NCBI GenBank assembly: GCA_021904315.1
Contig: CM038916.1
Coordinates: forward strand, 14,969,065 to 15,033,064
Direction: 5' to 3'
DNA length: 64,000 nt
Origin: Sphagnum magellanicum
Taxonomy: Eukaryota > Streptophyta > Sphagnopsida > Sphagnales > Sphagnaceae
A program made the translations under genes and the position numbers. Shown here one piece after another: positions 5,111 to 46,078 of the stretch. The number at the start of each line of letters is the position of its first letter. Position 1 is the stretch's first letter. Below the pieces are notes generated by a model, which saw only the letters and a program-made list of their open reading frames with translations, made no database searches and had not been told where the DNA came from.

Positions 5111-5793
5111 CTTGCAACATTGTTATTAGTCATAATTCCCACAACAGTTTGTAAGGAAACAAGTCTACACATATGCAACATTATCAATAGAAGAACACAC
5201 GTGCTCAAATTCAAAAAGGTTTAAGGGAGAAGAAGGAATCACTTCTTGAGAAAAAATGTGAATTTGCTTGAATGTTTTGTAGGTCACATTTGCAGTAACT
5301 AAAATTCGTAGCCAAGATGAAGATTGAATGTCGACTCCAATTGAAAAGCAAGAGTGAATGCAAACCACAATATGTAAAATAAACCCTATAGTTATGGTGT
5401 TTAAATGAACTGATATCTAAAAATTCAATGCACCAATAGTATCTACAACCTTGCTTCTACTTATGTGTAAGTCATAACTCCCTCAACATTTTGCAAGGAA
5501 ACAAGTCTACACACATGCAACATTATCAAAAGAAAAACACATAGGCTCATATTTTTAAAAGGTTTAAGGGAGAAGAAGGAATCAATACTTGAGTTTTAAT
5601 GTGAACATGCCTAAATGTTATGTAGGCCACACTTGCGGCAATTGAAGTTATTAATCGAGATGAAGACCTTGTTGACTCCAATTGAGAAGCAAGAGCAAAT
5701 GTATGCCACTTGATTTGTAAAATAGTTTCTACAACTATGGTGCACAAATGATCTCATCTCTCAAAATTCAATGCACTGGTAGTGTTTCCAACC
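5111..5793. repeat. Tandem duplication, two units of about 342 bp
   Basis: Unit 1 is about 5111-5450 and unit 2 about 5451-5793. Clear shared blocks are ggaaacaagtctacaca, ggtttaagggagaagaagga, gactccaattga-aagcaaga and aaattcaatgcac, each offset by about 342 bp. The minus strand of both units yields similar short open frames, but neither resembles a known protein and one unit is not better conserved than the other. Confidence 0.8.
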
Positions 5794-7912: not shown

Positions 7913-8654
7913 AGTATTTCATGTTTTTATTTTCTTTTTTGATTTTGAGTTTTCATCCTCCTCATTGTTTTTTTGCTTGATTTCCTTCTTTGGAATCAAA
8001 GTTGCTTGAAATTGTTTTCGTGGTTTTTCAACAAGTCATTTCAAGGTTGTGGAAGCCATTTGTTTTTTTCTTGGTTGTGCATCTCCATCTCCTTTGAAAG
8101 TAGATCTAGTTCTTGAGTTATAACCATTAATCTTGTTCTTTACCCACTATTTGAAACATGCAATCTATTTTTTTTGTTGTTTGCTATTGCTTGCCATATT
8201 TCAAGATTGTTGTAAGCAATTCTCAAAACAAAAATGGAAATTTGGATATGGAAAAAAAACACCATTCATAAGTTTAGTTACATCTATCAATGCTAATGTG
8301 TGAAAGGAAAAATAAAAAATAAGCAAAGATATATTGATGCTTCTAATGTCTAAGTAAGAAATTCATGCACAAGATAACATTTGAAGAATAAAATGCCAAG
8401 TGAAGAAATTGACATTCTTGAATCAAAAGTGCTTGAATGGATGATAAAAAAAAAGAATGGATGTGTTTCTAACTACTCAAGATAGTTTAACAACTTGTTG
8501 AAATATTTGATTTTTTGGGGAAAAAGTTGAAAATTTTAATAATTAAAAAAATATTTGTCAATTTTTTCTGGAAATAATTAATTATTTTGACAAAATCATC
8601 CAAATCCTAATGGTAGTTATGGTATCTTTTTCAATTAGGGTGAACAACTAGCAT
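7913..8654. other. AT-rich intergenic DNA
   Basis: T-rich and A-rich tracts with no open frame of note. Nothing recognisable. Confidence 0.5.
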
Positions 8655-9545
8655 GCAACTTCAATTTTATACATATAATATTTTAATATTTATTCTAAAT
8701 TATGATAACATTACATTACATGTAAATTTTATTTGTATAAATGAATGGTTATTTTTTTGTGCATATAAATATTAAAATTTAATTTCCAAATAAATTTGAA
8801 GGAAAATCCGAAATATATGTTAATAATAATGTATGATGCAAAAAAAAAATTGTAATAAAATTTAAGGAAATTCTATGTGGATCGAATTTTAGTTTACAAC
8901 ATATCAAGTAATGATACATAATTAATAGTTTTGTGGATATTTAATGTTTATTCATTTTTATACACATGATATTTTTTATTTTTAAAAAACTGTAATAAAT
9001 TTTCATTAAACATTATACTAGATGTAAATTATATTTGTGCTAATGAATAGTTATGTATGATGCAAATATTTTTGTGTGCATATAATATTATAATTATAAT
9101 TTCAAAATATAATTTAAGGAAATTATGAAATATATATTTAAAATAATCTATTTTCAATATATGTAATTTATTATTTCTATGTAAATCAAATGTTAGTTTA
9201 CAACAAATCAAATGATGATGCATAATTAATATTTTTGTGGAACTTTAATGCTTATTCATTTTTATACATAGGATATTTTAATATATATTTAAAATTACAA
9301 TAATAATTCATTAATTATTAAGCTACATGTAATTTCTTTTTGTATAAATGAATGGTTATGTATGATGAATGTTTTTGTGTATAAAAATGGTCAACTTTAA
9401 TTTAAAAATAAAATTTAAGGAAATTTTGAAATATAAGTTTGTAATAATGTGTATGTTCAATAAACATGTAATTTATTATTTTTATGTAGTTTGAATTTTA
9501 GTTTACAACATATCAAATAATGATACATAATTAATGATTTTATGG
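8655..9545. repeat. Three AT-rich tandem units of about 300 bp
   Basis: The block ttttatacatataatatttt at about 8665 recurs as ttatacacatgatatttt at about 8958 and ttatacataggatatttt at about 9260. Each is followed in the same order by a catgtaaattttatttgt-like block, aatgaatggttatgtatg and gtttacaacatatcaa. Spacing is 297 and about 303 bp. Diverged relatives of the same unit reappear at about 20760-21170. No coding potential is seen. Satellite-like or LTR-derived origins are both possible. Confidence 0.7.
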
Positions 9546-10194
9546 AAATGTATGGGGTGTAAACATGCTAATAGGATGCACTTTAGTGTAATGATTGTTT
9601 AAAAACGTGTATTTGGAATTTTGCATAATGGTTGAAAGGTTATAATATGAAAAAAAAATCATGCGATCTAACTTAATGTGGTGTAATAATTTTTTTGAAA
9701 TTTTTTAAATGAATTTTGAATGTTGAAAAAATATTCTTTAAGCAATGTACTTACTCCTTACTTTCATTACATCAGAATGCATCCTAGTTCACTTTGGGTT
9801 TCATTAAATTTTGAGTGAATTTGAACATTTTTACCATGGTGAAATTAATCAACCTCTTAGTGAATGGGGACTAGTTGTTGTGGACAATGAATTGTTTCAT
9901 TAGTACCTAGTGAAATAATGTTACTATCAAATGAAATACAAATTTATTAAACCATTCATTTGCTAGTTAATTAACTAACTACCCAACATGGAAATCAATT
10001 AAAATTAAATTATTTAATACATAATATTATCAATAATTTCATTATTTTCAACTTATGATTTGTTGACACGTGTTACTACCTAAGTTAAATTTAAAACCTA
10101 GCCTATGTATGTATGCGACATAGTCAACTTAGGCACTTATTTTAAGGAACTAGATAGAAAAATATTCAATCAATTTACCATTGTTGACCACACA

Positions 10195-10265
10195 CAACAC
10201 CACTTATGAGGTTTGATCCTTTAACCTTTAGAATGGAGGCAAACACCCTTACCATCAAGCCGCCC
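10195..10265 (-). other. tRNA-like A-box/B-box pair inside the CACTA subterminal region
   Basis: On the minus strand CGGCTTGATGG (10262-10252) resembles a pol III A box and GGATCAAACCT (10219-10209) a B box, separated by 32 bases. This is the layout of the head of a tRNA-derived SINE. The B box is retained in the second copy of this sequence at 36204-36214, where the A box is lost. It may be a SINE inserted into an ancestral CACTA element before that element multiplied. Confidence 0.4.
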
Positions 10266-10667
10266 CACTTATTGTGATAATATCTTACATTACATTCTAT
10301 TTATCAAATATTTCATTTTTAAACACAACAAAAACATAAACTTTGAAAAAAATTCATATTTGAGATTTTGTTCAAATGAAATGATTCAAGTTTACTTTTT
10401 AAATTTTTTTAATAATGTACATAATTAAATTTATTTCCTTTTGAAAGTGTAAAATCATTTGAACAAAAAAAAATTTGAATATCATTATTCAATAACATTG
10501 CAATGACCATTTAAAAATAAAATAAAATTAATAAATGGATTTTTTGTTAATATAATAATATTACCTATGCTAGGCTACTTTCAATTATTATATGGTTAAT
10601 TTTTATTAATTTAAATTATTTCACCTTACATTATTTATGACTATTTATGGTTATTTAAAAAAAAATT

Positions 10668-10669
<2 letters not shown>

Positions 10670-10714
<45 letters not shown>
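10670..10714. repeat. Poly-T run of 45 bases
   Basis: An uninterrupted run of 45 T follows TTGG. It could be a retroposon tail on the minus strand or a slippage product. Its exact length is liable to sequencing and assembly error. Confidence 0.9.
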
Positions 10715-11039
10715 CTTGCGTCATTTCAACTTAGGCTACTTTTGGTTATTTTAAGTTACTTTTAGTTATTTTAGCCTATTTCACCTTAGGTTATTTACAT
10801 CTATTGTAAGTTATTTTTGGCTATTCTATGTTTTTTTGGCTATTATAAATTATTTCACTTTAGGCTACTTGTAACTATAATAAGTTATTTTTGGCTATTG
10901 AAAGTTATTTCACCTTATGTTATTATTAGCAATTTTAGGTTATTATAGGTTATTTCACCCTAAGTTACTTTTGTTTATTGTAAATTATTTCATTTTAGAT
11001 TATTTTTAACAATCCTAAATAATTCTAATATATAATTAT

Positions 11040-11960
11040 TGGTTATTATTTTATTGGGGCTATTGGTGGTTATTAATGGCTATTAGTACCTATTTTATTT
11101 GTGGCTATTAATGATTATTCTATTACTGGTTATTGGTGGTATTCTATTAATGAATACTAATAAATACTTTATTGGTGGTTTATTAATGATTATTATAGGT
11201 TAAATTACCATAGGTTATTAATGGTTATTGGTGGTTATTATATTAATGGTTAATGGTGGTTATTATATTAATGGTTATTAGTGGTTATTATATTAATGGT
11301 TATTGGTGGTTATTATATTAATGGTTAATGGTGGTTATTATATTAATGGTTATTAGTGGTTATTATATTAATGGTTATTGGTGGTTATTATATTAATGGT
11401 TAATGGTGGTTATTATATTAATGGTTATTAGTGGTTATTATATTAATGGTTATTGGTGGTTATTATATTAATGGCTATTGTGGTTATTATATTAATGGTT
11501 ATTGCGATTATTATATTAATGGCTATTGGTGGATATTTTATTAGTGGATATTAGTGGTTACTAATGGTTATTATATTAATGGCTTTTGGTGGATATTTTA
11601 TTAATGGATATTGGTGGTTACCAATGGTTATTATATTAATGGCTATTGGTGGTTATTGGTGATTATTATGCCAATGGCTATTGGTGGATATTCTATTATG
11701 GATATTGGTGTTTGTTGTTGGTTATTATATTAGTGATTATTAGTGCATATTTTATTAGTGAATATTGGCGGTTATTAATGGTTATTATATTAATGGTTAT
11801 TGGTGACTATTTTATTGGTGGCTATTAGTAGTATTTTATTATTGGTTATTGATGATTATTACATTATAAGTTATTATTGGTTATTATATGTTATATTACA
11901 ACTATTGGTGATTATTCTATTATAAATTATTGTTGGATATTATATGTTATAATATCATAG
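11040..11960. repeat. Minisatellite with 25-bp unit and 75-bp higher-order repeat
   Basis: The core 11221-11470 consists of ten 25-bp units built on ATGGTTATTGGTGGTTATTA. Three variants alternate strictly: A has TTATTGGTGG, B TTAATGGTGG and C TTATTAGTGG. They start at 11221 (A), 11246 (B), 11271 (C) and so on, giving three ABC rounds plus one A. The core is almost free of mismatches, whereas the flanks (11040-11220 and 11471-11960) contain related but degenerate TTATTGGTGG units. The sharp contrast points to recent amplification of a 75-bp unit inside an older array. The open frame at 11646-11828 is a by-product of the repeat. Confidence 0.9.
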
Positions 11961-12579
11961 TTTATTAGTAGTTATTATATTGTAAGTTATTTTAAATTAG
12001 TTTTCATAAGTTATTATTTTCTATTCTAAACTATTTTGCCTTAGGTCATTATATTTTATTTTAGATTATTTTAAGTTATCATGTTTAAGATAAAATAACT
12101 ATAATAACATAAAGTAGAATGACCTTGAATAACTTAAAGTATAATTCGAAATAACACATATTAATTTAGAATAAAATAACTTAAGGTATAGCCTAAAGTT
12201 AGTTGAATAATTTAATTTAAAATAACTTAAAAGCTTATAATAATTTAATTAAAAAATTTAAGATAAAATAATGTATAATAGTTTAAGGTATAATAATTTA
12301 CAATAACATAAGGTATAAGTTAGAATAACTAAAGTAGCTAAAAAAAATATAGGTTATATCATAAAGTAACATATATAAGGTATGTTTTAAAACATAAAAA
12401 TAAACCTATTGACTATAGTGAATTATAATAGTGAATTATGTTAACTAGTAATGAAACAAGATGTTTACATAATGATATTATAATGAAATAACTTTAACCA
12501 AAGTGAAATCAATAAATTTCACTTTTAAAGTCCCATAGTGATTTAGGCTAATGACCTACACCCCATTTTTGCAGTAGTG

Positions 12580-15500
12580 TATCCTTTTGTAACACCATTA
12601 CCATTTTCCAAGAAGTAAGATCAATGGAACAAGGTCAGCACCTTCGTATTCAAAAAGGAAACTACCTCCACTTGCTTACTTTATTACAACTATTCAAGTA
12701 ATAAGTAAAAAGTTGTGCAAAAAGTAAAAGATGAGGGTAGGTATATTATCTAAGAACAAACCTACCATCTTGTTTGTAAGCTATTCCAAAGGTGCCAAAG
12801 GAAGAAAAAATATAAAAGAAAAATAAGAAATGAACTTAATTAGGGAATAACTATTCTCCCAGGGTTCTGCAGTACCTTCAATGCTTTTAAACATTGCCCT
12901 ATGGGGTTTGGAAGCCTCCAACATCTATTATCTCACCATAACATTGCATGTAGGCCCTTTGGTAATTTTGCTTATCGTTGCAACACCTTGGAACGCCTCC
13001 CTGACGATGCTTGTTGTCTAGAACAAGTTACACCCACTCATGGCCTTTACCTACCACCTACAACAATCCTTCCTAACCTGTAGACTACTACCTTATTGTG
13101 GCAACTAGTAGCTTACTATTTTAAAGGTTACCATTTAGTAGGCCCTTTTACTCTCTATTCTAGAAAAGAAGCATAACTACCATGAAAAAGGGCAACATAT
13201 ATTGTATAATCTTAAACTACTTTATTTTCCATGCCTTTACATAAAATAAATGCACACAAAACACATAGAAATTCCTTAACCATTTTCCATTAAACACAAA
13301 TACAAATACATTTCCTCACTACTTTTTCCTCCGTAATGTTACAATACACACCTCTAAAAGAATCCTCCATTCCATCAACCAACTACAAAAGTACTGAATG
13401 CCATAGAAATCTTCCAAAACTTCATCTAATTTTCCTTCACAAAATCACACAAGGCCCACATTGACCCCATGAAAATAGGGCCCTTATCCTAATCCCTTTT
13501 TATAAATCTTTTAAATGATTGGGTAGATTACCCCCAACCACTCACTAACATGAACTACTTAATCCCATTAGCTTCACCCCTTTGATAAAGGATGGTAAAT
13601 CTACCACTAATAATTATTAATTACTACAATCCCTATGGTATTAACTAGTCTAAATATTTTTACTCTTTAATACACCAATTCACATGTTTTACTTGAGATT
13701 TAAAGGTTATTTAACTTCAAAATTTTTATGCATTATCATTATTTATTAATTTTAAAATCACAATAAAAAATATAATCTTTTTTACAAAATTTATTTACCC
13801 ATTATTATTTTCTAAATGTTAAATCACTATGAATGTAACGGCAAACCAAAATTTTGAATGTCAAAATTTAATATACATTATATGACGGTCATTGAAAAAA
13901 AACACACAAATTATTTAACTTAAGATGCTATTAATTTGGCCCTACATTATATTTAAAAATTCATTGAATTAAAGGGTATAACCTACATAAGCAGCATTTA
14001 ACATCCATTTGTAAATGGAAAATGGATGAACAATTTGAAACAAATGAATTTGAATGAAATCATTAATTTTTGTTGAAGTCAATCAACAATTTAAATTGAA
14101 TCTTGTAGGGTTCAAATTACATCAAGGTTGTCGATGAACACAATTAGCCCCACCTAGCCCCTAACGCCTCATAATTTGGACAACTACTATTGTTAAGTGC
14201 TTGTAATGTTGTAGTCGCTAGTATGCTTGAGCACTACGAGTGTTGGAGCTTCCGTTAAGTTTGGGAAGCAAACATTGTTGCAAGCCAAATGTGGCCGCCA
14301 TGTTCTATAATTCTCAAGCTTTCCAACTCCATTTTGTCTTGAATTTTGGGTGCAAGATCTTTTGACAATGACAAAATCCCTTGAAGTCAAAGGTTAGTTT
14401 TGAATTTTGAATGTGAGAACTTGAAGTGCTTTGCATCAACTAGGATTGAATACAAATTCTTGCATCTTAGTTATGGTGGGATTTAATAATATAAAGCTTA
14501 TTCAAAGAGAAGTTGATAAGGTTAATAATGTCGTGTGGCAAATTTTGAAATGCACCCACATAGTTGAGGAGTGTGAGCATGTTCTAGATTGCAATTAACA
14601 TGGAAACATCTTTTACACACCTCCACAAAATCCTAATCAAATACCAAATGCAAATCAATTTTTAGTAGGTCTACCAGGTCCTTGGTTGCCCCTACCATCG
14701 ATTCGTGCAAAGTTGATGATTGATTTGACATATGCAATCAGTTAATGCAACCGAATGTAACTTGGGATGGTGGTTCACTTTTTAAAACCCCATTTGCTAC
14801 TAAAAACCAAGATCGTTAATTACTTAGGAAAGTTTTTGGAGAGTTTATAATCAACATTATGGTAATTATTAAACTCGGTCTCAAATGATTATGCACTCAC
14901 AACAAGGTTGTGCAAAATTCAACCTTGAAGGTTCATTGTGGTTCAAGACTATCAACTTGGAGATTTTTTTAACACATGTGCAACTGTTGTTTTTAAAATG
15001 TCCTTGACGTTTTCAATGGGTTGTGTGTAGGAATCACAAGGTCATCATGGCAAATTGCAAGTGTAATTTATAGTTGTAGATGGTTGACAAAGGTGCAAGT
15101 GGGTTGCAAGTTCTTCAAAATGACCAAGACCTTGACAAAACTTCATATCAAAGTTGGTATGATGCTAAGAGGAAAGTTACACATGCGATTAAGTAAAGGA
15201 ATACCGACTTTGCAAAGCTAAATTCATAGACCGGGAAGCATAGCTTGCTTTTAGAGTGTCTGCCAATAAAGTTCTACTTGACAACTATGATAGATAGGCA
15301 CAAAAGGTCATTTGTTGAAATTGCAAGAAAGTTTGCAAAATTTGCTTTAGAACTCAAGAAGGATTTTGAACATTTTATCTAACAAACAATTCTTGAAAAG
15401 TTCCTTGGTGATGCTTTCATGAAAGATGTCATGCTTGAAGTTTTATGATCTTCAATCTATAAAGTTGCATAAAATAGTTTTGAATAACATGAAATCAGGG

Positions 15501-18179: not shown

Positions 18180-20115
18180 CAAACAAAATAAATAAGGGGA
18201 CAATCAAAATATTTAACACCCCCTATATAAAGGTATTGCGTTCTACTCAAAGAGTGTTTTCCATGGGGGTATTGCAAACCAAGTGGATGATCAAAGTGAT
18301 AGGGAGCTTTAATTCAATTTAGGCACATTTAATGCATGTTGTACTCAGGTTCATAAAGCAAAATACTCAATGAACATGTAATATTCCATTCTACGTACCC
18401 TTGAAATAGTTTGGGCTCCATATCATATCTTTCAACAATTCGAAGGGTATTGCATAGCCTTACCAAAACCTAGAAGGAATGTAATACCTTCATTGGGTTA
18501 CATTATAATACCCTCATTGGGCCACATAGCAATACCCTTCCTAAGGTATCCTAGAAATACATTAGGCTCCATAACATATCTTTTGACATGTGAAGGGGTA
18601 ATGCATAGCCCTACCAAAACCTATAAGGATTTCAATACTCTCATTGTGCTACATTATAAACATCATGGGCTGAATTATTTTGGTCTAGGCTATCAAAGGG
18701 GTATTGCTCATGTTCAAAACTACTCAATACACTTGCAATACCCCTTTCAAGGTCTCCCATAAATATATTGGGTTCCATAACATATCATTTGACACATGAC
18801 AAGGTATTACATAGCCTTACAAGGAAACCAATACCCTCATTAAGGTATTCTGTAATTAAACACCAAGGGTCTACGTCGCTTTTAGAAAGGTATTAATCAT
18901 GCCCAAAACTACTCTATACACTTGTAAGGTATCCCAGAAATACATTGGGCTCCATAACATATCTTTTGACACATGACGAGGTATTGCATAGCCCTACCAA
19001 AACTTATAAAGGATGCATTACACTCATTGGGCCACACTATAAAAGCCATGGGCTGAATTATTTTGGTCAAGGCTATTAAATGAATATTGTTCATGCCCAA
19101 AAATACTCAATGAACATGCAATACCCCTTGCATGTTATCCTTGAAATACATTAGGCTCCATAACATATATTTTGAAACTTGGAGGAAAATTGCATAGCCT
19201 TACCAAAACCTAAAAAAGATGCAATACCCTCAATGGGCTACACTATAAACACCATGGGTTGAATTATTTTGGTCTATGCTATTAAAGGGGTATTGTTCAT
19301 GCCCAAAAAGACTCAATGAACATGCATTACCCCTCCCAAGGTATCTCAAAAATACATTAGGTTCCATAACATATTTTTTAACATGCGAAAGGGTATTACA
19401 TAGCCCTACCAAAACGTACAAGGAAACTAATACTTTCATTAAGGTATTCAATAATGAAACACCATGGGTCTACATTATTGGAGGGGTATTGTTCATTTTC
19501 AAAACCACATAATACACCTACAATACCTTTAGGTTATCCTAGAAATACATTGAGTTCCATAACTTGAAACATGGATGGGTATTGCATAACCCTACCAAAA
19601 CCTACAAGCAAAGCAATACCCTACTTAGGGTATTCAATAAAAACCATGGGCTAAATTATTTTAGTCTAGACTATCAAAGGGGTAATGCTTATGGCAAGGA
19701 ACATGCATTACCCCTCTCAAGGTATCCCATAAATACATTGGGCTCCATAACATATTTTTTGACATGTGGAGGGGTATTGTGTACCCTTACCAAACCTCCA
19801 AGGAAACCAATACCATCATTAGGGTATTTAGTAATTAAACACCATGGGTCTACACTACTGGAGGGGTATTACTCATGTTCGAAATTACACAATAAAACTA
19901 CAATACCCCTTATAAGTTATCCCAAAAATATAATGGGCTCCATAACATATCTTTTCAAATTGGAAGGGTTTTGCATAACCATACCAAAACCTAGAACGAA
20001 AGCAATACTTGCATCATATTGCAATAATATCTTAAACCATGAAACAAAAAGATCTTTTAAAAAATACTTATTCCATGCTCAATATAACATGCCTTACATA
20101 TTGATTCAAGTAAAT
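18180..20115. repeat. Satellite-like tandem array, nine units of about 150-206 bp
   Basis: The marker gggctccataacatatc, or a close variant, starts at 18412, 18564, 18770, 18947, 19153, 19359, 19551, 19740 and 19934, giving spacings of 152, 206, 177, 206, 206, 192, 189 and 194. Each unit runs through gccctaccaaaacctacaag, a caataccctcatt block, caccatgggct, ggggtattgttcatg and tgcaataccccttc-like sequence. Every unit thus carries GGTATTG and its complement CAATACC. Units differ by roughly a tenth to a fifth of positions. A 219-codon frame (19564-20223) crosses two units and is an artefact. Confidence 0.9.
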
Positions 20116-21890
20116 GAAGGTATTGCAAAGTTTTTCACATTGATGGTAAAAGGTCACTTGAACAAAGTTACGAAATTTAAATGTAATACTTGGATCATCA
20201 TGGGATATTTTCATTCATCATGAAACATAAAAACATTTTTTAAATATTTGATTCCCCACCAATATATCATGAAATCCATGTTTTCAAAATTATTTATTCG
20301 CCTTACAAATGATTTAACATATATAAAAATGAATGTAATGGAAAATTAGTGACATTGATGGTACAAGGGTTTAATGTTAGAGTTCAAAATTTGTCAAAAT
20401 GAAAAAATGAAAATTATTGCTTAACATTTTTTCAATGATGTACATATTTATGTTTTCCCTTTTTAAAGTTGTAAACTCCATTTTTTTAAAAATAAAATTA
20501 TTTTAAAATGATTTTAATGGATGTTTTAAAAACTTAATTAAAGCACATGATTTTTTACTTTTTAAAATGGTCTCTCCCATATATTAATCCTATGTATAAT
20601 TGAAATTTTATTTAAATTTTTTTGACAAATAATAAATAATTTCTAGCTATTAAAATTATTATATAATATTTTGATAATATTTTATATTTTATAAAGATAT
20701 AACACACCTTATGTAAAATTTATTTTTTATGATGTATAATATTGGCTTAAATATTGGTCTAAATATATTGTTATTTATAACATATCAAATAATACATTAT
20801 ATATAATTAATGATATTATCAAATTATATTGTTGATTCATTTTAATATATATAAATATCTTCATATTTATTTTAAATAGGATAAAATTGATTATGAAATA
20901 TTAAATTTGAATTATATATATAAACCCATGGTTATGTATAATGCAATTTTTTTGAAAATTTTATTTTAATGAAAATTTAAAAATCCAAAAAAAGTTATTA
21001 ACGTTGTATATTTTAATAATGCATGTAATTGAATATTATTTCTATGTAAATTGAATATTTAATTGAAGTTTGAAATATAAGTTATTAATATTATGTAAGT
21101 ATAATCTTGTAAATTAATTCTATGTAAATTTTAGTTTACAATGTACTAAATGATGATATATTTAGTTTTATAATGTGTGAAATTATATTTTTTGCATTTC
21201 TAAAGATATAATGTTTGCACAATTATTTTCATTTGGTAGAAATTTTGATTAAACATTTGATGGAGGAGGAAGGTGGGGCAAAAGTGGGGTTTTCTTCAGA
21301 GGTGCATTCTTTAGATGAGGCTTTTAAAACCTTGAAATTTCTTCCAATTGTGGTTGTTTAAAATTTGTGCTCCAAATAGTTTGAAAGTAGTTGGGCTATG
21401 GATGTAATCATCTCGTAATGGATGTGGCATGATCCACTATTTAAATCCTTACATTTATGATGATTATAAACTAAGATACTACCAACTTACATAAAGTTTA
21501 ACATGAAATAATTTCCTAGTCACAATTTTGTCTTCATTTTCATGCATCCCCTACATCAAAGGTGGTTGTTATTTTACATGAATTTTATTAGAAATCATCA
21601 ACCCATTGGAGGCATTGGCAATGCCATGGTTAGTGTGTGTAACATTGAATGTGTAATACTAATTTGGAGAGTTTTTGAAAACCCAAATTTGGGTCAGATT
21701 TTGTAATTTTTTTTTACTCTTTTTGTTGTGGCTTTCTTTGAATACCTATTGATATGCAATGACCTCATGAAAACTAGAAATTTAAACATGTAGAGTGAAA
21801 CGATAGGCAAGTTTCAAACCTTTCAAAATCATTTGCATAATCATCTAATTCAAAATCAAGATAATATCACATCATGGGAATTGAGGGTCT
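20116..21890. repeat. AT-rich DNA with diverged copies of the 300-bp unit from 8.7-9.5 kb
   Basis: At about 20760-21170 the blocks aacatatcaaataatacatt, cccatggttatgtataatgc, catgtaattgaatattattt and tttagtttacaatgtact occur in the order found in the tandem units at 8655-9545. The similarity is weak but collinear. The rest, to 21890, shows no gene. Confidence 0.5.
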
Positions 21891-25879: not shown

Positions 25880-28800
25880 TCATAAACAATTTAATTTCTT
25901 CAACGAAGTCATGGTGTTGAGGTCTTCCACAAAGAGATCCAAGCTTTTCCTTGAAGACCCTCCAGGTTCAGTTGCATTTCTTGCCACCTTCTTTAGCTCC
26001 TTAGCATTTTTCCTCACAATATTGCTAGCAGCATCTTCCATCAAAAGTTGAACAACCCTTTCAACCTCCTCTTGTCCAACAATCTCCTTGAATTTCTTGT
26101 CAACTGCAATTGCAATATTCAAAACATCAACACAAAACCGGCCATTGAGCATTTGATCAGCCCAAAGTGGCCATGTAATCATGGGCACACCCATGGAAAT
26201 GCTTTCCATGATAGAGTTCCATCCGCAATGTGTTAAAAATCCTCCAATGGCGGGATGTGCTAAGATTTGTACTTGTGGCGCCCAAGATGTATAGACCAAA
26301 CCTTTATTTTTGGTCCTCTCCATGAAACCTTTGGGAAGGAAGGTTGCAATTTCTGGGGCCAAGTTCCCATCTTCGCCTTGTGGGATCCTTATAACCCAAA
26401 GGAAGCGCACACCACTAGTTTCAAGCCCCATAGCTAGTTCATTCAATTGTTGTGTTGGGAGTATGAATACTGTCCCAAAGCATATGTATAAAACAGATGA
26501 TCTTGGTTGTTGGTTCAAAAATTGTAAATAATCATTATCTTTTCCATCCACTTTCGGTTCCTCTAGTTTGTTGTTGTGGGTTAGTAACAATGGCCCAATT
26601 GTGAAAATTGTTGGCACCTGCAAACAAAATCAATATAAAGTTTAGATGAAAATTGCATCTCAAAAGCAATGCCATTGACCTAATATAATCAATTAAAACA
26701 AACTTTTCAATATAAAACAAATGGTTTTAATATGAGGTAGGGACTTCTTGAAGTAGCACATAATAAACAATGCAACCACACTAACATGTACACAAGCAGT
26801 TGTAACCAATGTTTGGTTTTGTGTATTTAACATTTTAGAAAAAAATAAAGAACTCCAAATGGAATTGCTTTCACATAATGTTATTTTCAATGTATTGGTA
26901 TATATAGTTTAAAAGTTTGAAATTGATCTAATGAATGAAAAATACCCAAAAGCATTTTGAAAACATTATAACTAGTGTTTTTAAGCAATAAAAAGACTTG
27001 TAAATGGACTTGAATTTTTTTTGACAATAACAGAATTTTATCAAAATTTTGATGTAAACCTAATATAATAGAGTGACGAAAATTTTGAAGATTTTAAAAA
27101 AAAAATTAAAATTTTTTGTTCAAAAAATTTCAAGAATATCCTAGAATAAACACCCAATTAGCAATCACCCAAGGGAGCGAGTCCGGTTCATAGTGTCCCA
27201 TCTGCACCCTAAGTTGATTGAAAAAAAATGTCCTTACAATAATCATTTCAAAGTCTTCTCTAGTTTGTTGCACAGGCACAATCACTTCTTTTATTTTGGT
27301 GATGGGCCTCTTTGATTGGCTCATCACAACACCAACAAAAAACACTCACAATGTGAACACTCCCAAAATAAAGATTTTGTAGCATTTCTCTTTGGCTTAA
27401 CTACATATCTTTACCATAATATAATTTGAGCAAAGGATATGGGATAAAGTTTGGTGTTATTAGGAACAGTTTGAGGAACACATTGAGAGCATCGTTAGCA
27501 ACTAAAATCTAGAAATAAATCCCCCCATCCTGCCCTTCTCCCCCCCCCCCCCCCCCCACAAACACACTTTTAGGGGAAAAAATGGACCCTAAAATTTCTT
27601 GGTTCATATTTAGCTATCTCATTGGCTGTATTTGCTCTAAAGTTGTTCACAACCATTTTTGGCTTGGGCTATAATTTCCCCTTCCTAAGAGTGTGGGTTG
27701 TTGGCTGTATTCCTTTATTTTTCCATTCATTTACTTTGAGCAGCCTTGCACCCAAAAAAAAGTTCAAACTTAAGATGAATGTTTGAAGTTTAAGCTTCTA
27801 AAACTTCAAACTCTTTCCCCAATTGTTAGTTTGCACTGGAACAAAGTAGGATTATGGTTTTTCTCCCCTTTAGCCCAGCTATATAGGTTATGGGAGTGCA
27901 ACTCTGAGAATAGGTTATGGGATAAAATGTTTGGGGAACACATTGAAAACTTGAGAATATGGTAGGAACCCTAACCCCCCTTCCCCCCCCCAAAGAAAAA
28001 AAAAACGTGGGCCTTATGGCTGCACCTTATTGGCTAAGTAAAATTTTTACTCCTTACTCTCTTAGTCACCCATTTTTTCCTACACTACAACCCTCCTTGA
28101 TCATGGGTAGCTACTAGGGTCATGATATTAGTAAGAAACTCCATGGTAAGTAAGGGAACCGACCTGCTCTTGTTCTGAATCACTTTGAAGAAATTTTTGT
28201 ATGCCAGTGATAACACCGGATTCCAATTCATTGACTGTATTCACAAGCACCCCAGTGGCTTCCTTGAGCTTTTTCCCTTCATCAACAAGTCTTTGTGGAG
28301 GATATTTCATCTCACTTCCCTGCAAGTAAACTGAGGGAAGATCGATGGGTGAGAGTGGGGGAAATCCAGGAATTTCTAGTGGCTTTGCAGCGTCTAATGG
28401 CATGGGGATGAGCCCTTGAGCAACCCAATTTTTAGCATGCAATATCATTGACAAGGAACGTGCTGCACAAGTGTAAAGACAATATCTTGGGATTTTGAAT
28501 TTTTTTGCTGTATCCTGCATCCCCATCCTCGATATGACATATCAATTAGTCAGGTTTGAAGCTAGAAAGTGAAGAATCCAAAACTGTAGGTCAAGGACTT
28601 ATTTTCTTAACAAGGGACCGTGAGGGTAGCTCCACTTTAAGAAGTTACAACTACTACTACATTGGAGGTGGAGCAAGTGGTCCATATTTCCATAATAATT
28701 AGTTTGCAAGAATGTTGATTGCTGGTAGGTCTTATTTTCCCTCTGCATCAACTAATTCTCATGCTGAACAGCTGAATTGACCAAACTTTGCCCACTCTCT

Positions 28801-29344
28801 AATACATCATACAAATTGACACAATAAATAATTAATGAAAACGTTGCAATAAGGGTACCTGGGTCCAACCCAAAAGCATGTCGGAGATGATGCACACAGG
28901 AGAGCTGAACCAAAAACTTCCAATGGTGCTGCTTGATGAATGAGAGATTGGGGAAGGCTGATGATGATTAAAAGCAGTAACATCCTGGGGTGCCATCAAT
29001 TTCTGTATGATTTCGGCAAAAACCTCGTGCTTGTTTTTGGGAAGATAGAACATCAGATCATACAAGGTGTGTGGATTAGTGTTGACATATTGTGGAGGAA
29101 TATCAAAACAAATGATTTGAATCTTGCCATGGCCTTCAAAACTATCTTCCACCAATGCTCGCACACTAGCAAGATGAGGAGTTGCAATGATGAAGGTGAT
29201 AGCAATCCCATAGCTGGCCAAGGTCTTGGATAGCTGAACCATGGGAGCAATATGTCCTTGTGCAGGGAAAGGGAAGGCCACCACATGAGCACCTCCTCCA
29301 GCCACTACCGCTTGGTTTGAGTCTTTGTCTTCTTCACCCAACAT
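25880..29344 (-). CDS. Family-1 UDP-glycosyltransferase (UGT), three exons
   Basis: The enzyme transfers sugar from a UDP-sugar to a small plant metabolite in the cytosol. Exons: 29344-28859, 28514-28164 and 26617-25880 (162, 117 and 245 codons), with GT-AG introns of 344 and 1546 bp, both phase 0; 524 aa, slightly longer than usual. His31 in PFPAQGH is the expected catalytic base and Asp155 in CIISDMLL its partner. The plant secondary-product box occupies about residues 391-434: it starts WAPQVQILAHPAIGGF, contains HCGWNS and ends WADQ; a final Gln usually goes with UDP-glucose. All key residues are present and there are no stops, so it looks functional. The acceptor substrate cannot be told. 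Two introns are unusual, because most plant UGTs have none or one. The ATG is the first in the open frame and lies in a GGGAAAATGTTGG context. Confidence 0.93.
27420..28050. repeat. Duplicated block with poly-C runs inside UGT intron 2
   Basis: The segment around 27431-27640 (tatgggataaagtttgg, gaacacattga, a run of 18 C at 27540-27557, then cattggctg) is echoed at 27905-28040 (tatgggataaaatgtttgg, gaacacattga, a C run near 27976, then tattggcta). It explains part of the length of this 1.5-kb intron. Confidence 0.6.
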
Positions 29345-29589
29345 TTTCCCCTTGTGATAATAGAACTTCCACGACTTTGAACAAGCAAAATTTCCTAACA
29401 GAAATCAAGAGCAAAGTTATTCAATCCAACTGAAATCTCTCACATACAAAGTCCTTTCAATTTTCCAAAGAAAGAGACGGAGTTTCGTGATTATGGTGGA
29501 CTGCTGCAGAAGATACAAGAAACCTTCAAATTCAATGACAGAATGACGTCCCTTACTTTAGTTAATCTCAAGAATCGAGTATCACAAAG

Positions 29590-31788: not shown

Positions 31789-32589
31789 TTCTTTTCCCAA
31801 ACTCTCCTTTTCTTTCACAAACCAAATGTATGAAAAAAATTAAAAATAACCCATGGGTAACTTCTTCAAGGTAGTTGTTGTCGGGTAGATTCCTTCGCAC
31901 AAAGAAGAGGATTAAGTGGTAATCTCAATAAAGTTTCGTGAGGTTGAACTCTCTCAAGGAGAAGGGGACTAAGCGATAGGCCCAACTAAGTTCCTTGGGG
32001 TCAACTTCCACAAGGAGAAAAGGACCTTTCCTATGGAGAAAGGGACTAAGTGGTAGCCGCAACTAAGGTTGCTCCCTTGAAAGAAATGAATTTTTTCTCT
32101 AGGAAGGATTCTCTTTGGGGAAAAAGGAACATGGAATGTCCCAAATTTTTGAGAGAAATGTGCAAGGAATAATTTTTTTCCAAATCATTTATTTTGTTAA
32201 AAAGTTTTCAAAGAATAGATATCAAAAATGAATTTGCTTTTTCCATTTGAGGCTATGAGATAAAAGTTAAAAGGTTAAAAAAAAGCTCATGAATCAAATT
32301 GATAGTTTGATTCTTGATTATTAAAACACAAGAAATAAGGTCAAATGACCTTTGATAGAAACCCATGAAACAATGTTGGAAAGATATCATCGAGGGCTAC
32401 AACTTTGTAATGTAAAGTTTTTCAATCATAGATCACATGAAGATGTTATGAACTTCCAAAGTTGTGGGAACCATGCGTTCCCCATGGAACTTGGGCCCAT
32501 AAATGGTTCCCAAGGCAACTTGGGTGGGTTCTTTTCAAGGCAAGTTCCTTATGAACACTATTTAAAAAGGGGTGTTTTACAATTGGCAT

Positions 32590-32612
32590 TGCAACTCAAA
32601 TTTTGAGTTGCA
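32590..32612. repeat. Near-perfect palindrome with 11-bp arms
   Basis: TGCAACTCAAA and TTTGAGTTGCA are separated by one base. CAACTCA or AACTCA recurs several times in the next 170 bp (for example at about 32624, 32684, 32703 and 32728), so this could be the tip of a degraded repeat family. Confidence 0.8.
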
Positions 32613-32974
32613 TCGGACATTTGCAACTCATTGTATTTATATGTGAATGCTAACAAACAAGTTGCATGAGTTACAAAATTACAACTCACCATATATATAC
32701 TATAACTCATTGTAACTTAGTCAAAACAACTCATTTTCAACTACTATGTAATCCATTATAATTGCACCCATGATGTCATACTAACATCATTAATTGTCAT
32801 CCATTCATTAAAATCTTACACGTGGCATTATGACAAATTTTTTTTGGAAATTATCCATTGTTCATTATTATTGTTAATGATTGTCCGAAATTGTGACATG
32901 TGGCCAATCAAAAATTGTCACATGGCATTTTAAAAATAAATAAATAAATATTTTAGTAGCTAGGTAGGTCATTC

Positions 32975-32978
<4 letters not shown>

Positions 32979-33016
<38 letters not shown>
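32979..33016. repeat. (CA)19 microsatellite
   Basis: An uninterrupted CA dinucleotide run of 38 bases, in AT-rich intergenic DNA. Confidence 0.97.
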
Positions 33017-33017
<1 letters not shown>

Positions 33018-34330
33018 TGTCTTGAATAATTGATCGAATTCATTATGAAGTATCCCCAATTTGGATAAATATTTATTTAATTATTATTTAATAAGTAATT
33101 AACTTTTTAGTTAATGTGAAATTAATTATATTAATTACACTTATTTATTCATATTAATAGCCAATTATTTAATATAATCAATAAGTTCATAATAAGTAAA
33201 TGTATTAAACATAATTAATCTTTAATAGTGAAATTATTGAAACAATAAATTTTTACAAAACATTACATATGAATATGTATCCTTATTAAAGTATAAGTAA
33301 TTGCACTATAGTTATAACATATATAGTTGAATAATATAGTAGTTTAGTAGTGGCACATTAATGTCCCTACTAATTATATCAATGGGAATCATAATAAAAA
33401 AAATAGTTACAAATGCATCCTATAATGGGTGGTGGAAATGTGGACAATAACATGATCACATGTATGTACATTATACATTAATTGCAACATAGTTGTTGTT
33501 TTAATGCCCCATTTACAATAGTTTTTAAGTAGTTGCCACAAACAACTACAATGCAACTCTTGAAAAAGTCAAACATGGTTGATTACATATGTATGTACGA
33601 TGTATATAAATTACCATATAGAAAATCCAATTTCAACTCACTTGCAATTATAAATACAATTAACTAATTTTCTAATGTGGCAATTTATTTATTAATACCC
33701 CTTATTTCTAAGGGGATAGTCACAAAATAGTTGTATATGAATTGTTTTTTGAGCTTTAGTTACAAGGGAGTGTGGTTTCAACAAACGCAATTTCCCATAA
33801 TGGAAGGAAAAGACTTTCCATGGGGAGAAAGGGATTAAATGGCAATTGTGAACATTAATTCACCACCAGTGTTTTCCTGGTCCTTATTATTGGGTTTTTT
33901 AAGTTATTAACATTTTAAAATAGGTAATAATTTTATTTAACAAGTTATAGCCCATTTTGGTTTCATAAGTCATTAAAAACATTGTGATTTTAATATTGTT
34001 AAACATTCAATATTATATGTTGAGTAACTTCATGAATGAAATTTTAAACTATAGAGTTATATTCATTTATCATTTATAATTTAGTTAGGTCAAGTCATTT
34101 ATCATATTTTAAAAATTGAATCAATTTTAAATCACAATTGTAGTACATATCAAGTTGTGATGTTAGTCACGATTACTACAAACTTTGCAGTTGTTAATGA
34201 ACCCACCTTTTGATCTCAATAAAAGTGCCAACTCAATTTGGATTTGCATTTGAATCTAGTATAGATGGGAGTGAGGATAAAATGAAGGCTAGCAAATGGA
34301 GGTGGATTTAGTAGTCACACTGGAATCGTA
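33017..34330. other. AT-rich intergenic DNA, no gene
   Basis: Long A/T-rich stretches with no open frame of note. The sequence cccataatggaaggaaaaga then ccatggggagaaaggga near 33797-33830 resembles the repeated gagaaagggactaa motifs at 31960-32060, so a shared repeat may be present on both sides. Confidence 0.45.
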
Positions 34331-36115
34331 ACTTACCAAATTGGAGGTGGCATCTAGTAAGAGAATTATTTTCAATGTTGCAAACATTTTTAACATAGCA
34401 AAAGGCTCTGTACCAATTCAAGCCCCTGCCTTTGTAGAAGTTAAAACATTTTCCAATGACACAATTGATCTAACATTTTCCGGTATAACAATAAAAAACA
34501 AAGTTCCGGTGGTTGGAATTGGTATGGAGGGTGAGGCTTTTATTTGGTACAACCAGAGTCAATTGCTATCCTTGCTACTAATGTACTGAGGTCTTCTACC
34601 ACATCGAAAGATGTAGGATTAAATGTTAACGAGGAAGTTGTAGATGTAACAAAGGTAACGACTATGGAAAAATAGTGTAGAAAGTATAGACTGTAATTAT
34701 GAGGATGTAAGCCTAATTAAAAAGGGGAATGAATTTGAAGGTAGAATTTATTGAAATCATATTTTTATCCAAGTTTTATTAAAACCAAAATTTCTTTATC
34801 AAAACTCATTTACTAAATTTTTTTCTACCAAAAAGCTTGTTATCAAAACCAATTTGTATTATTGATTTGAATTAAGTTATATTTAGGATCAATTTTTTGG
34901 AGGATTGGGCTAACTACATGTTCCACCCTTTTTGACTTTTTTCTTGGAGGTATTTAAGGCTTTATACCTTTGAGGACTATATAGGGGAATTTTTTTTTTG
35001 AATAAAATTAATTTTTTCTTGCCATACTTTTTTATTTTGATTTCTATGTGTTGCTTTCCCTTTGTATGTTTTGAATGTTTTAATGTTTTGTATGCAATTT
35101 TTCTTTTTTTTATTTGCTTCAAGTTTGTTTCTATAGAAAGTTTATGAAATTGTCCTACTAAGATTTGATAATCCTTTTTTTGTGTTGAAGCCTTTTGCTT
35201 ACCTTACAAGAGTAAGAAAAAATTATCTTCTATTCCTTTATTTTATTTCCTTCAAAACTTGATAGTTCACTGAGTGGCCTTAAGAACTATCTATAGGTTA
35301 GAGCAATAGATGTTTTCTTCATTATTATTTTCAGAATAGGATTGTTACCTTACTTCATATTAACTACAACATGTATGAAACAAAATACCTTGATTGAACA
35401 AAAGAAGTTACTATAGTATGTGAGGAAAGTGGACCTATTAGTTTGAGTTATGATGCATTACTAACCACACCAAAGGTTAATATAGTAACTAAACCAGTGG
35501 TACTTGTTGTTACTTGTGTTAAATCTACGTCAACTTGTATTAATTGTGGTAAAATAGGTCATAGTCTTGATACCTGATAAATTTGAAAAAAAGAAGTACT
35601 AGTAGTATGAATAACCACAATTAAGTCTACAAAACTAGTAGCAAGAACTAAAACACAACATGTTAAACTGGTTAGGATACATGTTCAATACCCTTGTATT
35701 ATATGTTCAAATGCCGAACAAAGAACCAGAAAATGTCCTAGGAAGATTGAAATGCAAAACATGTTTAGAATTAAACCTATTAATTTTACTATTACAATAC
35801 CAAAGCTACCTAAACTTGAGAATGTACCAATTAATGTGGTAGTTGTTGTCACTACTTGCATTTAACAATTGAAGTAACATGTGTTGAAAAAATGGGAACT
35901 GATTAAAGCCAAGGAGTAGAGGATTGGCAAATAGAAGAACATTTACAATATTCATTTGTTGAAATTGTGAAACAACTACAGTGTGGCAAGATTGACAAAC
36001 AACCCACTGCAATCATTAAAGAACCATTCCATAATAATTGGGCTGAACTACCTGATAACATTACTGTAAATCAACTGGTTGAAAACAATTGAACTGGTGA
36101 AGTGTTTCAACAAAT
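34331..36115 (+). pseudogene. Decayed gag-like coding region with zinc-knuckle motifs
   Basis: A plus-strand frame includes CINCGKIGHSLDT followed by TGA at 35536-35577. This is a C-x2-C-x4-H-x4-C knuckle whose last Cys codon has become a stop. Some 120 bases further on is YPCIICSNAEQRTRKCPRK (about 35689-35745), a second Cys-rich module. Downstream protein-like stretches include EDWQIEEHLQYSFVEIVKQL (about 35920-35985). An 82-codon frame at 34341-34589 may belong to the same unit. Zinc knuckles of this type bind nucleic acid in retroelement Gag proteins. The polymerase part is absent. I infer a retrotransposon-related protein but cannot name the superfamily. Confidence 0.55.
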
Positions 36116-36171
36116 TATGACATCATAACATGTGACAACAAAAAAAACTTTGAAAGAAATTCTAAAGGACA

Positions 36172-36653
36172 TAGAGGTGTTTGCTTCCATTCTAAAGGTC
36201 AAGGGATCAAACCTCATAAGTGATGTTATGTGTGGTCAACAATGGTAAATTGACCAAATATCTCCTATTTAGTTTCTTAGAATAGGTGCTTAGCTTGATT
36301 ATGTGGCCTACGTACATAGGTTTGGTTTTTAACTTAACCTAAGTAGTGACATGTGTCAATAATTCATAGGTTAAAAATCATGAAATTATTAATAATATTA
36401 TATATTATATAATATAATTTTAATTGATTTCCATGATGGCTAGTTAATTAACTAGCAAATGAATGGCTTGGTAAATTTGTATTTCACTTGAGAATAGTTT
36501 TGTTTCACTAAGTTCTAGTGAAACAATTCATTCTCCGTAGTAATTGGTCCAAGTTCACTAGGGGGTTGACCAATTTCACCATGGTAAAAATGTCCAAATT
36601 CACTCAAAATCTAGTGAAACCCAAAGTGAACTAGGACACATTTTGGTGTAGTG
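36172..36653 (-). mobile_element. CACTA element end, inverted copy of 9765-10255
   Basis: Read on the minus strand from 36653 this begins CACTACACCAAAATGTGTCC, a well-kept CACTA terminus. It then follows the left end of the element at 9765 for about 480 bp at roughly 80% identity; shared blocks include CTAGTTCACTTTGGGTTTCA, ATTCATTTGCTAGTTAATTA and TTTACCATTGTTGACCACAC. The other end of this element was not found; the decayed gag-like region to its left may lie inside it. Confidence 0.8.
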
Positions 36654-37429: not shown

Positions 37430-37830
37430 ATAAAGCAGTAAACTGATTACCAAAGGGCCGTTAAGTGCTTACCACGAACCTAAAACACCACAAAGTAGTA
37501 GATTAATTACCAAAACAATTAGGTGTTTACTAAGGGCTTGAAACTCCCCAAAAAAGTAATAGAATCCTTTCCAAGCAATCATATGATTAACAAAGGACTT
37601 CAAGTAGGTAAAAAAAACCATACTCCTTACCAAACCAATTAGGTGCTTAATCATAGGACTTGATATACTGAACAAAAGACTAGATTGATTACCAAAGCAA
37701 TTAGATGCTTTAGTAAAGGACTTGCAATTCCTTACAAAGGAAATTATTCATTACCAAAGTGGTCAGATGTTTAACAAAGGATTTGAATGATGGACAAAGG
37801 ACAAGCTGTCCTGAACAACATTAGAGTCCT
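37430..37830. repeat. Minisatellite, about 61-bp unit, six to seven copies
   Basis: The block ttaccaaagcaattaggtgc, or a variant, begins near 37447, 37507, 37567, 37627, 37689 and 37751, each followed by a ggacttg-like block. The period is 60-62 bases and the copies are diverged. It lies between two minus-strand coding remnants and may be intronic. Confidence 0.8.
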
Positions 37831-43842: not shown

Positions 43843-44300
43843 TACCTTTAAATCTTGACATTCAAATTTTTTTTAATACATTTCATGCAAATACTAATAC
43901 TTGGTGGCCACTTGGTACAACTTGTAAAAGTTTCAATTTATCAAAACATTGATAGGCAACACAATTTGGACTTAGTATAATAATACGATTAAAACTTGCT
44001 ACTTCTAAATCTTGAGTTTTCAAAACAATTTTATACAGTTCATGCGTGTACATGGTGGCCATTTGGTACAACTTGTAAAACTTTAATTTATCAAAACATT
44101 AATAGATAACACAATTTGAACATAATAAAATAAAAGGATAAAAATTGGCTACCTTTAAATCTTGACATTTCAAAGCAATTTTTATACATTTCATGCAAAT
44201 ACCTAGTGGCCATCTCGTAGAACTTGTAAAAGCTTCAATTTATCAAAAAAATAACAAATAATACAATTTGAACTTAATAAAATTAGAAGACTTAAAAAGC
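43843..44300. repeat. Three tandem units of about 150-157 bp
   Basis: aaatcttga starts at 43850, 44007 and 44157. Each is followed by tttcatgcaaatac or a variant, ggtggccacttggtacaact, tcaatttatcaaaacatt and aacacaatttg in the same order. The copies differ by small indels. Confidence 0.85.
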
Positions 44301-45623: not shown

Positions 45624-46078
45624 TCTACTTATATAAAAGAATCGGTGTGTGTCCGTCCGTCCGATATCCTATTGGCTGGAAAACTCAGGGTAATGGGTAT
45701 CACTCAGTGTCTGGTTTGTTTGTGAGGAAAACAGGGTCCCTCATTGCAATGGGTAAACTCTTGGGTGGGTTGTGAGAACTTTCGGTGAGAGGAAAAGTCA
45801 CTCAGGGTATCGGTATCACTCAGTGTAATGGGTATCACTTAGTGTCAGGGTGTCACGAAGTGTAATAGGTATCCTCTTGGGTGTGTCCGTAATGGGTATC
45901 ACTCAGTGTAATGGGTATCCCTCAGTGTCAGGGTATCACTCAGTGTAATGGGTATCCTCTTGGGTGTGTCCGGGTTTAGGGTTTTCCTTTTTCCGGGAGA
46001 TTTTCCTTTTTTCTTTCTACCTCCTGATAAAACTTTTCCCCTGATCATTTTGCTTGCAAAATGGGTTTACCAACTAGT
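45624..46078 (+). mobile_element. Non-autonomous Helitron, 455 bp, both ends present
   Basis: The 5' end is TCTACTTATATAAAAGAATC, a typical plant Helitron start. The 3' end has an 8-bp stem, CATTTTGC/GCAAAATG, with a 2-base loop (46047-46064), then ten bases and the terminal CTAG (46075-46078). The base before is A and the base after is T, the expected A-T insertion site without target duplication. The interior carries no Rep/helicase gene, so it would depend on an autonomous element for rolling-circle transposition. It contains a short tandem array of gggtatcactcagtgtaat and tcctcttgggtgtgtccg words (45690-45975). Confidence 0.88.
45690..45975. repeat. Short tandem array within the Helitron
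   Basis: gtaatgggtatcactcagt and close variants recur about ten times, interspersed with two complete copies of tcctcttgggtgtgtccg. The arrangement is patchy, not strictly periodic. Confidence 0.8.

Follow-up and report, generated by a model that had tools for sequence, protein, structure and literature searches.

A perfect 75-bp block of three alternating 25-bp units in the tandem array of a probable CACTA-type element of Sphagnum magellanicum

The window, a 64-kb stretch of Sphagnum magellanicum DNA, holds a faultless block of 75-bp repeats, each composed of three alternating variants of a 25-bp unit, set among diverged units of the same kind (Table 1). The block is likely to be the product of a recent multiplication, in place, of a 75-bp segment in the old array of a probably dead CACTA-type element (E1), and a case of neutral turnover.

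Table 1. Positions of the proposed features in the window
Feature	Position	Strand	Basis or remark
E1, proposed decayed non-autonomous CACTA-type element, ~2.8 kb	9765..12579		Homology edge on the left; right end by eye
E1 left terminal region, begins CATTACATCAGAATG	9765..10247	+	Common to E2
E1 right terminal region, from the end CACTACTGCAAAAATGGGG	12380..12579	-	4 AGTGAA/TTCACT motifs in 200 bp
Degenerate GGTTATT-type unit array	10560..12085	+	RGYTAYT counts; Tandem Repeats Finder periods 25, 35, 55, 60, 75 and others
Perfect 75-bp block (25-bp A-B-C units)	11216..11474	+	3.45 copies
Second multi-unit block, 60-bp period (25+20+15)	11508..11657	+	Tandem Repeats Finder, 2.5 copies, 93%
Short arm of similar units in opposite orientation (weak)	12090..12440	-	blastn, RGYTAYT, 25-mer score
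E2, second CACTA-like relative, ~4.1 kb	32556..36653	-	Left end 36653; right end 32556 by eye

When cut into 25-mers, positions 11221–11470 read ABCABCABCA with no mismatches within any class, bearing out the preliminary description of ten 25-bp units in three strictly alternating variants. Exact identity at a lag of 75 was found in all 184 comparisons and extends slightly beyond these limits, giving a block of 259 bp with diverged units flanking it on both sides. Within 11221–11470, identity was 1.0 at a lag of 75, 0.95 at 50 and 0.947 at 25. Of the 4200 possible orders of four, three and three units, 2 have a strict period of three, and the A-B-C order is not due to chance. Across the 64-kb window, 40 or more consecutive bases match exactly at lags of 6–400 in two cases, the block and its own harmonic at a lag of 150. 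Tandem Repeats Finder (TRF) called a period of 75 at 11216–11620, as well as periods of 25 and 50; the 75-bp call has 89% matches because it continues into the diverged units.

The three variants differ at two positions overall, with T>A at unit position 8 in B and G>A at position 10 in C (A-B, 1/25; A-C, 1/25; B-C, 2/25). As just two sites distinguish them, a single base change each in B and C, followed by an amplification of 75 bp, suffices to account for the pattern. The block shares with satellite-type higher-order repeats a fixed order of variants and near-identity between blocks (here 100%, with monomers 1–2 of 25 bases apart), such that the label is formally correct but thin. Monomers of classical alpha-satellite higher-order repeats are far more diverged from one another. 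The block likewise consists of a multi-monomer unit in near-perfect copies, but with the small monomer differences given above and 3.45 copies at the locus, while satellite-type higher-order repeats form long arrays of many copies in heterochromatic or centromeric positions. The same differences in monomer divergence and copy number separate it from FabTR-2 of Lathyrus, for which higher-order patterns of a 49-bp monomer are among the results reported (PMC7004042). The view that the multi-unit order is unusual or centromere-like is not supported, given monomers one or two bases apart and a second multi-unit block, with a 60-bp period, adjoining the first.

This second block starts 33 bp to the right of the 75-bp block, and its neighbouring copies are identical at 56 of 60 positions; TRF also called a 55-bp period at 10810–10944 (71%). 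The proximity of the 60-bp and 75-bp blocks marks multi-unit expansion as a habit of this array, one that has probably occurred more than once and at different periods. Judging from its lower identity, the 60-bp block is probably older than the 75-bp block.

Units of the GGTTATT type extend over approximately 10560–12440 in both orientations. The interval first proposed for tandem-repeat analysis, 11040–11960, includes the A-B-C block, but related degenerate units continue beyond it. The motif RGYTAYT, counted in 150-bp bins, has 62 matches on the + strand and two on the - strand in 10500–12149, with both - matches in the last bin, and none on the + strand and five on the - strand in 12150–12599. 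On the + strand it is present from the bin 10500–10649 through the bin 12000–12149, while outside 10500–12500 it occurs at 0.14 per 150 bp, strands combined. This passage from + to - matches indicates that the array switches strand near 12090, and 12213–12311 matches 11999–11912 in inverted orientation (blastn, 72.7%, E 1.6e-5). By 25-mer score the opposite arm is weak (7.84 on the - strand and 5.99 on the + strand vs an AT-rich background of 6.66). Mean scores against unit A were 23.8 in the block, 13.8 to its left (11040–11215) and 16.3 to its right (11475–11960), dropping to 8.3 and 9.1 further out (AT-rich background, 6.7), in agreement with the earlier claim that the related units around the block are diverged. 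On its right side, the block is followed directly by two related 24-mers, each with one lost base, that carry one and two substitutions, respectively. The block stands in register with diverged related units on both sides, which makes growth in place likelier than insertion ready-made. A GC skew of +0.68 across 11001–12000, a strong strand bias over 1 kb, arises because the + strand of the array units contains G and is poor in C. A strict 5-bp lattice across the whole array was considered and rejected, with multiples of five enriched in one of the four segments tested; mean autocorrelation at multiples of five vs other lags was 0.445 vs 0.331 in 10716–11040, and 0.347 vs 0.333, 0.376 vs 0.359 and 0.377 vs 0.375 in the other three.

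The perfect block is non-coding. A coding repeat had been considered, as 75 bp (3 × 25) would stay in frame, and was rejected on account of a stop in every 75-bp repeat in all six frames. A structured RNA was likewise rejected, with no Rfam match at the gathering score in 9600–12700; the fold of the strand-switch region (11900–12440) was modestly better than that of shuffled sequences (z -2.90, 1 of 100 as good). The block is probably without function.

Elements of the CACTA (En/Spm) type are recognized by CACTA terminal inverted repeats of ~13 bp, short subterminal repeats and a 3-bp target site duplication, and autonomous members encode the tnp2 (Transposase_21) transposase, which non-autonomous elements need not. 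The left end of E1 was delimited by homology, as 9765–10247 aligns inverted to 36653–36176 in E2 (blastn, 83.4% over 483 columns, 16.6% differing). The alignment starts at CATTACATCAG in E1 and CACTACACCAA in E2 even when 60-odd extra upstream bases are supplied on each side, and this edge does not depend on any motif search. The right terminus of E1, chosen by eye, may lie at 12579; the sequence there resembles the right end of E2, which reads CACTATTTAAAAAGGGGTGT from 32556. Inward from 12579, the - strand of E1 reads CACTACTGCAAAAATGGGGTGT, and its first bases, 12579 down to 12567 (CACTACTGCAAAA), equal the left end of E2 at 11 of 13 positions. Three of the four proposed ends begin with CACTA, both right ends having been chosen by eye, and the left end of E1 begins with CATTA; the first 13 bases of the left and right ends agree at 9 of 13 positions in E1 and again in E2. 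A 13-mer search allowing three mismatches found 32 matches vs 31.65 expected, which is chance level, and the exact match at the E1 right end is no evidence since the search used the letters of that end. Similarity between 200-bp ends was scored for five pairs against 300 single-base shuffles per pair. The E1 left and right ends scored 69 vs a shuffle maximum of 66, a marginal excess and the sole one among the five pairs; the others fell below their maxima (E1 right/E2 right, 58 vs 66; E2 left/E2 right, 58 vs 68; E1 left/E2 right, 48 vs 59; E2 left/E1 right, 49 vs 52).

Subterminal repeats were found in the form of AGTGAA/TTCACT. Of 1276 overlapping 200-bp intervals, 10 contain this motif at least three times, all of them at either end of E1 or the left end of E2 (E2 right, none). 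As the motif was picked after viewing the ends, this clustering counts as support and not as a blind test. In both elements, the 3-bp flanks agree at two of three bases (E1, TTT/TAT; E2, ATC/TTC). The longest listed open frame in E1 is 67 amino acids, and a transposase was absent from the 10 open pieces scanned against Pfam, five of which came from E2 and none from E1; the five represent a subset of the 14 listed open pieces of at least 55 amino acids in E2. The identification of the host as an old CACTA element is supported by the left end common to E2 and the motif clusters, and weakened by the CATTA end, the two-of-three match of the flanks and the lack of a transposase in the scanned pieces. 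Taken together, E1 is probably a decayed non-autonomous CACTA-type element.

No match to the GGTTATT array was found in E2 (blastn of 8001–14500 against the window, E 1e-3). Near its right end, repeats of the GAGTTGCAA type were seen by eye. An open piece on the + strand of E2 (35398–35574) has a possible CCHC zinc knuckle below the cut-off (Pfam E 0.17) and is perhaps captured sequence.

The block most likely originated in an old AT-rich minisatellite array that forms most of the interior of E1. Units B and C of three adjacent 25-bp units would each have acquired one base change, and the resulting 75-bp run would recently have been multiplied in place to ~3.45 copies, either by slippage during replication or because misaligned units underwent unequal exchange. 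Either process may have been at work, and the two would give an indistinguishable picture here. A different three-part 60-bp segment would have been multiplied at another time, probably earlier. Divergence between the 75-bp copies is at most ~1.6% (rule of three on 184 comparisons, which are not fully independent) vs 16.6% between the left ends of E1 and E2, suggesting a young age for the block compared with that of the family. Of the proposal of a young block in an old CACTA element, the faultless block amid diverged units stands, and the host is less firm. Gene conversion may instead have homogenized the copies, in which case the expected picture is identical, and selection for regularly spaced protein-binding units may have shaped the block.

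Selection for binding also enters an alternative in which the array serves as a functional subterminal repeat region, bound by a TNPA-like protein of the element itself and expanded for that reason. Subterminal repeats and their variability have been described for CACTA elements (PMC2613891). The units here point inward from both sides of the strand switch near 12090. The + arm, however, starts ~800 bp inside the left end, E2 has the same left end without the array, a different short motif (AGTGAA/TTCACT) already has the look of a subterminal repeat at three of four ends, and the five of 14 open pieces of E2 that were scanned contain no TNPA-like remnant; this reading is unlikely. Perfect repeats tend to be misassembled in copy number, and the copies could be collapsed or spurious, but a 259-bp block flanked by diverged units lies within the span of ordinary long reads, and a collapse alters the copy number and does not generate the A-B-C order; an assembly artefact is very improbable.

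It is also conceivable that E1 seeds or carries a satellite, with the 75-bp unit exported to longer arrays elsewhere in the genome. Precedents are found in several plants: the CficCl-61-40 satellite of Chenopodium originated from Jozin, a CACTA-like element (PMC7320549), an array of 5,550 bp with 32.5 copies of a 171-bp monomer resides in CACTA-like elements of C. quinoa (PMC8978399), and satellites of Lathyrus arose from short arrays in the 3' UTR of Ogre elements (PMC7004042). Against these precedents, the locus has just 3.45 copies, and the blastn search that included E1 recovered no second copy of the array in the 64-kb window, a result that applies to the window and says nothing beyond it; export of the unit is quite improbable. 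A combined scenario, in which a mirrored, inward-pointing GGTTATT array of this CACTA family repeatedly spawned blocks, the 60-bp one and then the 75-bp one, and one of these founded a satellite elsewhere, is very improbable. Local multiplication within the old array is the preferred reading.

Transposons, CACTA elements included, are well documented as sources of satellites and as hosts of tandem arrays. A 2022 review tabulates cases (PMC9659126), and a 2025 review describes how tandem repeats expand within MITEs, as well as arrays within Helitrons (PMC12628747). As in Chenopodium, the tandem array lies within or derives from a CACTA element, but the Jozin monomer comes from a ~40-bp tnp2 fragment, and that of C. 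quinoa is 171 bp in 32.5 copies, while the unit here is 25 bp, non-coding and AT-rich, and the 75-bp block has 3.45 copies (PMC7320549, PMC8978399). The Ogre arrays are likewise short tandem arrays whose monomers vary in length and which lie in a mobile element; in contrast, the host here is a probable CACTA-type DNA element and the array is known from one locus (PMC7004042). Satellite seeding by a CACTA element, if true here, would not be a first case, and the block is an ordinary feature of an already known type. Its value is as a compact example of multi-monomer blocks arising inside the tandem array of a transposon, where two neighbouring blocks differ in period and decay and a few hundred bases are enough for higher-order structure to form. 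The block would gain greater importance only if the 75-bp unit occurred in long arrays elsewhere.

Other features of the window include a UDP-glycosyltransferase frame at 25883–26629 on the - strand (Pfam UDPGT, 4.8e-23; region 25880–29404), and a frame at 28835–29404 that resembles the N-terminal part, with a sub-threshold Glyco_transf_28 match (E 0.16). A 305-bp unit occurs in two to three tandem copies shortly before E1 begins on the left (8660–9552; 73–75% between copies), and its diverged relatives are found at 20760–21161, partly within a 1-kb stretch of 19% G+C. Tandem repeats with periods of 206 bp (2.4 copies) and 195 bp (3.8 copies) are present at 18926–20008, and short tandem arrays occur at 43843–44283 (150 bp), 45798–45972 (83 or 19 bp), 5128–5776 (343 bp) and 37500–37787 (62 bp), making the window rich in small arrays.
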